A stretch of 38,261 bases of DNA from Candidatus Uhrbacteria bacterium RIFOXYB12_FULL_58_10. Lineage in GTDB: Bacteria > Patescibacteriota > Patescibacteriia > UBA9934 > GWF2-40-263. This document shows, piece by piece, positions 22,194 to 24,091 of the stretch. A program made the position numbers and the translations under genes. Location: positions 42,085-80,345 of the forward strand of contig MGFA01000001.1 of the NCBI GenBank assembly GCA_001791645.1, given 5' to 3'. Under the pieces are notes generated by a model. That model did no database searches. It was not told the origin of the DNA and worked only from the letters and a program-made list of their open reading frames with translations. Numbering within the stretch: position 1 is the stretch's first letter; every line of letters starts with the position of its first letter.

Positions 22194-22829
22194 TTAAGAG
22201 CGCTTAAAGGTCTTCGTGATCGTATCGATCGCTTCCTTTGAAACAATGACAAACTCATGCGCGAGCAAATCACCGATGTTCAGCGAGTGCGCCGGGAGCG
22301 TGGTCACACGAGGAATATTGCGCGCGGCGCGGGCAGCGGCCGTGTTGGCCGTTTCAAGCACCACGAGCGTTCTCTTTCCGGCGGCCGGAAGTTTCTTGAG
22401 GACATTGACGAACACCTTGGTCTTCGCCTCCGGAAGCACCATGCTTTCAATCGCGACGAACTTCTCACTCACGACCTTGTCGGTAAGTACCATGGCAAGC
22501 GCCTTGCGCTTCGCGGCCTTGTTCAATTTGACGGAAAAGTTACGGTCACTGCGCGGTCCGAACGTAATTCCACCACCGACCCAAATTGGCGAGCGGCGAG
22601 AACCATGACGGGCCTTACCAGTTCCTTTTTGTTTCCAAGGCTTCTTACCCGTTCCAGCGACCTCTGAACGATCCTTCGTGTGAGCGAGCACCTGGCGACC
22701 ATTCGCATGCTGGGCCACGAGTGCCTCATGAATGAGCGCAGGGTTCGGCTTCACGTCAAAGAGGGCGGCATCGAGCACAAGCTCACCGACGGAAGCTCCT
22801 TCCTGATTATAGAGGGTTACTTTTGCCAT
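22194..22829 (-). CDS. rplD: 50S ribosomal protein L4
   Basis: 211 aa. The tunnel-loop region KPWKQKGTGKARHGSRRSPIW and GPRSDRNFSVKLNKAAKRKA are diagnostic. In E. coli L4 also represses its own operon by binding the S10 leader. Its start overlaps the end of rplC by 13 bases, so the two are coupled. Confidence 0.97.
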   Translation of the reverse strand: MAKVTLYNQEGASVGELVLDAALFDVKPNPALIHEALVAQHANGRQVLAHTKDRSEVAGTGKKPWKQKGTGKARHGSRRSPIWVGGGITFGPRSDRNFSVKLNKAAKRKALAMVLTDKVVSEKFVAIESMVLPEAKTKVFVNVLKKLPAAGKRTLVVLETANTAAARAARNIPRVTTLPAHSLNIGDLLAHEFVIVSKEAIDTITKTFKRS

Positions 22830-23443
22830 ACGGACTTGGCTTCGCGCGACACCACGAGGAGAATGCCTCCGCGGGCGCCAGGCACGGCACCTTTGATTGC
22901 CAAAATATTGTTGACAGGATCAACCGAAATCACCTCGAGATTCTTTACCGTTACGCGATCATCGCCCAAGTGACCTGCCATGCGCTGACCCTTTGAAACC
23001 GGACCTTGTCGCTGAGAAGCGATGGAACCAGGCATACGCATCTGGTCTTTCTGACCATGGGTGGCGGGACCACCGGAGAAATGATGGCGTTTCATCACGC
23101 CAGCAAAACCGCGGCCTTTTGAGGTACCAACGACGTCCACGTGCATCCCCACAACGAAGACAGACGCATCGATCATATTCCCTCGCGCAAGATCAGTGGC
23201 ATCCACGCGGAATTCGCGCAACGTCCCGACCGTCGAGAGATCCTTGACGTGTCCTGCTTCTGGTTTTGGGAGGACGCGCTTTACGTCCGTACCAAGCTGA
23301 ACGGCAACATAGCCGTCTTTTTCTGTCGTGCGTACCTGCGTCACGACGTTCGGATCCGCCTTAACAAGCGTTACCGGAATAACCGTCCCATCCTCACGGA
23401 ACTGCTGCGTCATCTCGAGTTTTCGACCAATAATGAATGGCAT
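22817..23443 (-). CDS. rplC: 50S ribosomal protein L3
   Basis: 208 aa. GRGFAGVMKRHHFSGGP and PGSIASQRQGPVSKGQRMAGH form the long loop that reaches the peptidyl transferase centre. It is preceded by a 306-base structured non-coding stretch. The best SD (AGAGG) lies in a small hairpin 11 bases before the ATG. Confidence 0.97.
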   Translation of the reverse strand: MPFIIGRKLEMTQQFREDGTVIPVTLVKADPNVVTQVRTTEKDGYVAVQLGTDVKRVLPKPEAGHVKDLSTVGTLREFRVDATDLARGNMIDASVFVVGMHVDVVGTSKGRGFAGVMKRHHFSGGPATHGQKDQMRMPGSIASQRQGPVSKGQRMAGHLGDDRVTVKNLEVISVDPVNNILAIKGAVPGARGGILLVVSREAKSVWQK

Positions 23444-23749
23444 ATGACAGTGGTCCTCTTAGGACATATCTCCGGCATAAGTAAAAGCCAGAAGTCGGTC
23501 CGTCTTGGAATATTCGCTGTATCAACTTGATTCAAGACAAAACGGCTTCTGACCTGTTCGCGTCACGGAACAGAATGTGTCGGGGGATTCGTAAATGAAT
23601 GGCAATATGTCCTTTTCGGTCTTCGGAAGCCCCAGGATGTTTTGCACTGCATCTTATCCTGTGTTCGTCGACCGACATTGATCACGGGTGACCGATCGTA
23701 TGGACCTCCATTGAGATCCATACTCTTCTGTCATCCGTGCGGGATCGTA
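23444..23749 (-). promoter_or_regulatory. Structured untranslated region between rpsJ and rplC
   Basis: 306 bases with no plausible gene. On the minus strand it folds into several clear hairpins: an 11-bp stem with loop AATG (23698-23723), a 6-bp stem CTGTTC/GAACAG (23554-23573), a 19-bp stem with two mismatches and a 25-base loop (23489-23551), and GTCCT-AAG-AGGAC (23453-23465) over the rplC SD. No T-tract follows the strong stems, so they are not intrinsic terminators, and I found no convincing promoter. By analogy with the E. coli S10 leader, which binds L4 and lies before rpsJ, it may be an autoregulatory element moved to between rpsJ and rplC. Confidence 0.7.
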
Positions 23750-24091
23750 CTATGTCTTGATCTCGACGTCAACCCCCGCAGGAAGATTGAGCGACATCAG
23801 CGCGTCAATGGTCTTTTCTGTCGGCTCCGTAATGTCGATGAGACGCTTGTGAATACGCATCTCATATTGCTCACGCGAGTCCTTGTGGACGAACGTGGAG
23901 CGATTCACCGTGTACTTACGCTTCTCGGTCGGAAGGGGCACCGGCCCATGCACCTTTGCCCCGGAACGCTCGGCTGCCTTGATGATGGTGAGCGTTGCCT
24001 GGTCAATGATTTTATGGTCATAGGCGCGGATTCGAATGCGAATACGCTGTTCTTCCGGCTGCTTTTCGGCTTTCTTTGTTGCGTTTGACAC
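23750..24091 (-). CDS. rpsJ: 30S ribosomal protein S10
   Basis: 113 aa from GTG 24091. The frame also offers GTG 24118, giving 122 aa, but the extra MAIVLSINT is untypical. The core [14 protein letters not shown] and [20 protein letters not shown] are diagnostic. S10 is a head protein that also pairs with NusB in antitermination. No SD precedes either start. It lies about 50 bases after tuf and is presumably read from the tuf promoter. Confidence 0.95.

Follow-up and report, generated by a model that had tools for sequence, protein, structure and literature searches.

A conserved RNA element between rpsJ and rplC in Candidatus Uhrbacteria and its class: a probable leader and attenuator of a ribosomal-protein operon

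Described leaders and the rpsJ-rplC gap

In E. coli, uL4 binds the S10 leader, and termination is promoted together with NusA (PMC10931766). The element described here resembles that leader in that it would control transcription into the same ribosomal-protein (r-protein) block, and in that an upstream hairpin region precedes what is, in the Uhrbacteria element, a putative terminator hairpin (PMC10931766, PMC7186457). However, the E. coli leader lies before rpsJ and the Uhrbacteria element after it; the two have no sequence in common, homology is not demonstrable, and any L4 site in the Uhrbacteria element would be hypothetical. They also differ in reach, as the E. coli site is narrowly conserved (PMC10931766), whereas the Uhrbacteria element is class-wide. 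The rplJL (L10(L12)4) and infC (L20) leaders of B. subtilis likewise place a choice between terminator and antiterminator ahead of r-protein genes (PMC10931766), but they serve other genes through another binding motif, and an antiterminator in our element is only suggested, in some class relatives. A paper on 20 new r-leaders predicts an L4 candidate in Archaeoglobi, upstream of rplC, rplD, rplW and rplB, and names no Patescibacteria (Eckert and Weinberg 2020, PMC7247131). That candidate is archaeal and borderline according to its authors (PMC7247131); we set it apart by its description, not by its structure.

The window, the whole stretch of DNA that we analysed, is 38,261 nt of the genome of Candidatus Uhrbacteria bacterium RIFOXYB12_FULL_58_10, whose nearest named relatives are Candidatus Uhrbacteria MAGs (rplC identity, 82-88%). 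On its minus strand, rpsJ ends at 23750 and rplC starts at 23443, which leaves a gap of exactly 306 nt (23444-23749) in a cluster where rplC and rplD overlap, rplB and rpsS are 4 nt apart, and rpsS and rplV are 9 nt apart. A sequence-only reading had picked out this gap and four hairpins within it. The gap is real and all four hairpins are present: an 11-bp stem (23698-23723, within 23683-23739), a long imperfect one (23487-23554), a 6-bp one (23554-23573), and a GTCC..GGAC one (23453-23465). The same reading was mistaken in finding no T-tracts, as the coding strand carries TTTT at 23483-23486, directly after the long hairpin; its finding of no convincing internal promoter is doubtful and probably wrong, given a TTGACG-N17-TACGAT site at 23772-23744. 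On the coding strand, the gap folds at -103.2 kcal/mol, compared to -80.9 +/- 5.1 in shuffles (z = -4.4; 0 of 100 shuffles equal it), and its sequence occurs once in its own genome. The features, in transcript order, are as follows.

Gene order, minus strand: tuf - rpsJ - [306 nt] - rplC - rplD - rplW - rplB ...
23744..23772, minus strand: candidate promoter TTGACG-N17-TACGAT, 9 of 12 consensus matches, overlapping the rpsJ stop
23683..23739, minus strand: 5' hairpin with the 11-bp apical stem; this 5' part folds with z = -3.9
23670..23675, minus strand: P0 5' strand, TCGGTC, forming 6 bp in the window with the 3' strand
23626..23668, minus strand: core overall (P1, P2, internal loop, P3), from the R3 match and alignment A7
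23664-23666 and 23626-23628, minus strand: P1, GAA/UUC, from the partner swap test
23656-23661 and 23633-23638, minus strand: P2, CAGGAU/AUCCUG; the typical form is GGAAG/CUUCC
23652-23655 and 23639-23642, minus strand: core internal loop, AAGA/AAAC, the constant part of the loop
Within the core, minus strand: P3, UGC/GCA, with a loop of widely varying length
23616..23621, minus strand: P0 3' strand, GACCGA, from the partner swap test
23554..23573, minus strand: hairpin B, CUGUUC/GAACAG, 6 bp, from the swap test
23487..23558 (model match, 23483-23558), minus strand: hairpin C, a terminator-like stem, GGUCAGAAGCCG.../...CGACUUCUGGC, from the R2 match and covariation
23483..23486, minus strand: UUUU tract directly 3' of hairpin C, 39 nt before rplC
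23470..23476, minus strand: segment E, GCCGGAG, complementary to UUCUGGC in the hairpin C 3' arm
23453..23465, minus strand: small hairpin GUCC..GGAC just 5' of the rplC start
22817..23443, minus strand: rplC (uL3), the first gene 3' of the element

We rejected a hidden gene in the gap because no frame stays open across relatives: there is no conserved reading frame, and the longest open frames vary by genome and reach only 20-35 codons in some. An Rfam 15 cmscan of the window's gap gave no match at gathering score or up to E = 10, and in the gaps of ten relatives Rfam gave only chance-level miRNA models. Our literature search, with most subscription papers outside its reach, found no report on r-leaders in candidate phyla. 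The element is probably a new RNA class with a familiar kind of regulation.

Conserved structure within the gap

A gap of 202-398 nt is found in all 41 family genomes (Candidatus Uhrbacteria, the window included) in which both rpsJ and rplC could be placed, and it recurs in order and class relatives; in Chloroflexota from the same rpsJ/rplC search, it is mostly below 130 nt. Every one of the 41 family gaps folds better than its shuffles, with a median z of -5.3 and none above -2. Two blocks are common to them in both sequence and structure, namely a roughly central core and, not far from rplC, hairpin C. The structured leader proposed inside the cluster, after tuf-rpsJ and ahead of rplC-rplD onward, is thereby borne out, with gap and stems conserved and covarying among relatives. 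The 5' hairpin is a variable accessory, without conserved sequence; the 5' part is at least 25 nt long in 27 of the 41 family genomes, with z below -2 in 26 of these, and is absent elsewhere in the family. It is possibly a 5'-terminal mRNA-stabilising stem. We also read directly a further 23 genomes, mostly class members without a model match, which have gaps of 152-708 nt and in most cases a hairpin C end of the type CTTCT[AG]G[CT]TTTT. The gap is much longer in some class members, where additional hairpins or repeats are inserted (755 nt in L199, 708 nt in L220, and about 542 nt in L193 and L208).

Hairpin C is the clearest case of conserved pairing. In an alignment that leaves the window out, 96.8% of the cells of its 18 pairs are paired, 11 of the 18 pairs have double changes, and covariation is 0.540, compared to 0.09-0.14 for slid controls. 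Several pairs alternate between A-U and G-U when read on the coding strand; read on the opposite strand, such changes would give mismatches, and the RNA is therefore that of the coding strand. The predicted terminator is a GC-containing hairpin followed directly by a U-rich tract (UUUU in the window, U5-U7 in relatives), as in intrinsic terminators. Of the 41 family genomes, 39 have U4, while the tracts of the order are mostly U5-U6 and those of the class reach U7.

The core has the layout P0/P1/P2-AAGA-P3...-AAAC-P2', with P1 as GAA/UUC and variants. Alignment A7, with 81 sequences from across the class, has 94.9% of its P2/P3 cells paired and a covariation of 0.416, compared to 0.05-0.11 with the partner strand slid, although these values lean toward structure because the alignment was fitted to the model. 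Exchanging strands between genomes involves no model fitting, and in such tests, with kinship not removed, native partners beat swapped ones for P0 (family, p = 5e-4; order, p = 0.007), P1 (family, p = 1e-4), and hairpin B (40 family genomes, p = 1e-4). A simple pattern scan for rRNA mimicry by the core in the genome's own 23S and 16S loci gave no match above shuffled sequence. In several lineages (L024, L122, L155, L156, L178), the core loop changes from AAAGAUC/GAAAAC to AAAGUUC/GAUAAC, at A7 column 18 and in the AAAC strand; this non-Watson-Crick co-change of A.A to U.U hints at a conserved tertiary contact.

Between hairpin C and rplC, further pairing is possible. In the window, at 23470-23487, the 3' arm of hairpin C (CUUCUGGC) could pair with the downstream GCCGGAG, and matched changes keep this complementarity in many family genomes (CUAGC/GCUAG, CUGGC/GCCGG, CUGAC/GUCAG). 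The D:E complementarity tracks by genome, at 14.3 for native and 12.9 +/- 0.28 for swapped combinations (0 of 5000 swaps, kinship not removed). The small hairpin before the start codon is seen again by eye as GUCC-N-GGACCAAU in L003-L009, L018 and L022.

Distribution in the class and sources of transcription

How far does the element extend beyond the window? We built covariance models of the core (R1) and of hairpin C (R2) without the window, and a further model, R3, from class-wide R1 matches, among which the window was not present. R2 detects the window's hairpin C at 42 bits (E = 1.8e-7 in 38 kb). R1 with default filters gives no match on the window because its P2 has become CAGGAU/AUCCUG and its loop is one A shorter; with filters off, R3 places the window core at 23618-23668 with 28.8 bits, on the same strand as the R2 match and in the expected order. 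The AAGA form also occurs in class relatives without a model match (L221, L223, L226-L229, L231 and L235; e.g., GUAAAU-AAGA-UGC..GCA-AAAC-AUUUAC), and thus the window core is a variant rather than a ruin.

Matches to R1 were found in 68 of 73 order genomes and 60 of 381 class genomes, and matches to R2 in 34 of 286 genomes. Among the order and class hit loci that we fetched, 52 of 60 adjoin rplC (51 with the rpsJ-rplC gap measured and 1 at a contig edge), and all fetched matches outside the family with E < 1e-6 lie within the rpsJ-rplC gap. The other 8 of the 60 loci are weak R1/R2 matches away from rplC, which we treated as chance. A phylum-wide R3 search gave only chance-level scores outside the class, and we found no second strong copy elsewhere in the searched genomes.

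Transcription could reach the element from two sources. A promoter-like site at the rpsJ stop, of the form TTGACG-N17-TA(C/G)(A/G)AT, is the region's best in 5 of 5 genomes of the window's genus (p, 0.005-0.03), with TACGAT as the -10 in the window and TAGAAT or TACAAT in the others; only the -10 is informative, because the -35 sits within rpsJ codons. Most genomes in the rest of the family have no such promoter at the rpsJ stop. For both reasons, transcription there may also enter from tuf-rpsJ, and with either source the element precedes rplC on the rplC transcript. In at least 9 genomes of the class, the best sigma-70 promoter of 2.5-3.6 kb on both strands (TTGACA-N17-TANNNT) lies just 5' of the core; in nine such loci (L210, L221, L223, L226-L229, L231 and L235), the element is therefore a true 5' leader of rplC. 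The promoter in the window's genus is weaker than those of the class relatives.

A candidate attenuator ahead of rplC

An intrinsic-terminator-like hairpin that follows a conserved globular core in the leader of an r-protein operon is how an attenuator is built. The structure of the element is conserved, its orientation is that of the coding strand, its 3' end resembles a terminator, and its place ahead of rplC is constant; it combines two marks of an r-leader, namely covarying conserved structure and a consistent cis position upstream of r-protein genes. We consider it likely that the element acts in cis on the rplC-rplD-... r-protein operon, as its leader and attenuator. RNA polymerase would arrive from tuf-rpsJ or from the promoter at the rpsJ stop, transcribe the core (P0-P3 with the AAGA/AAAC internal loop), and then reach hairpin C and the U-tract before rplC. 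Binding of the core by a product of the downstream operon, by precedent most likely L4, would let hairpin C form and end the transcript, while scarcity of free ligand, e.g., during active ribosome assembly, would give read-through into rplC. We infer that hairpin C ends transcription in this genome, where it is followed by U4 only, that a ligand controls termination, and that this ligand is an r-protein. Because of the uL4 precedent in E. coli, L4 would be the first ligand to try, as the most likely of the putative ligands; our analysis does not discriminate it from L3, L23, L2, or others.

Part of an antiterminator may be visible in the class. In nine distant class loci, the terminator loop is complementary to a strand just 3' of the core, by up to 11 bp and with partners that match within each genome, as would be expected of an antiterminator (native, 18.9; swapped, 14.8 +/- 1.0; p = 5e-5, an optimistic value because the loci were chosen after the match was seen by eye). 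The same pairing does not reach significance in the family of the window (p = 0.30) or in its order (p = 0.70). This result counts against the attenuator reading, as do the lack of rRNA mimicry in the scan of the core, the tract of only U4 in the window and its family, which would make a weak intrinsic terminator, and a drift in the window core large enough for R1 to give no match.

A rival reading is translational control, in which hairpin C, segment E, and the GUCC-GGAC hairpin would alter ribosome access near the rplC start and the U-tract would be incidental in the family. In the family, the 3' arm of hairpin C can pair with segment E, and this pairing may affect translation; the tracking of this alternative D:E pairing between genomes fits such a role, as do the U4 of 39 of the 41 family genomes, several genomes in which hairpin C abuts the start codon, and the use of both modes by E. 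coli uL4 (PMC10931766). However, segment E is missing in several family members and in class relatives, the U-tract is longer, not shorter, among relatives, and in most genomes rplC has no clear Shine-Dalgarno to mask. With this evidence, we regard translational control as unlikely. We also rejected a looped-out Shine-Dalgarno bridged by hairpin C, since neighbouring genes are often without a Shine-Dalgarno too and the upstream GAGG is not kept. In the window, none is recognisable for rplD, rplV or rpsC (22829-18312, minus strand), and rpsS has one.

Rather more doubtful is that hairpin C is a constitutive terminator of the tuf-rpsJ transcript, with rplC transcribed from its own promoter and unregulated. 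Class relatives do have canonical U5-U7 terminators, and several have strong promoters between rpsJ and the core. But these class promoters are 5' of both core and terminator, so the terminator is within the rplC transcript. The U-tract, moreover, may end just 4-20 nt from the rplC start codon. Genomes in which this distance is at most 20 nt make up 11 of 41 in the family, 4 of 26 in the order, and 6 of 16 in the class, and they have no room for a promoter 3' of the tract. Nor would a plain terminator need a class-wide P0-P3 core. We give the least credence to a stable intercistronic or processed small RNA or an mRNA-stability device, acting in trans or protecting the mRNA rather than attenuating rplC: the strong 5' hairpin (26 of 41 family genomes) and the terminator-like 3' end could delimit a discrete RNA of about 250 nt, but the position is always directly before rplC, the 5' hairpin that would give protection is the least conserved part, and the searched genomes have no second strong copy.

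To our knowledge, almost nothing is known about the balancing of ribosome production in Patescibacteria, which are ultra-small and for the most part uncultured. A leader present across a class, and with a core that is small and testable, would be a direct handle on this control. We are evenly divided on the fuller claim that this is an undescribed class-wide Patescibacteria r-leader with a new protein-binding core (P2-AAGA-P3...-AAAC-P2'). On that claim, the S10 operon would be divided, with rpsJ grouped with tuf and the genes from L3 and L4 onward under an attenuator of their own, and the element may exemplify a broader tendency among Patescibacteria to have a terminator directly ahead of rplC. 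If true, an L4/S10-type control point has been moved into the gene cluster, or reinvented there, with an unrelated RNA.

Two observations concern gaps outside the class. In Sphingomonas, five gaps measure 365-368 nt and a further one 206 nt, compared to 16-53 nt in the other Alphaproteobacteria of the same table; these long gaps are probably unrelated to the Uhrbacteria element. In other Patescibacteria beyond the class (L243, L246, L249, L251, L261, L266, L267, L269 and L286), the last 30 nt or so before the rplC start likewise hold a strong terminator-like hairpin and its U-tract, and these hairpins may belong to other leaders. In L243, L245 and L251, an upstream AACGATTYACC is complementary, by eye, to GGGTRAATC of the terminator, which suggests further, different attenuators.
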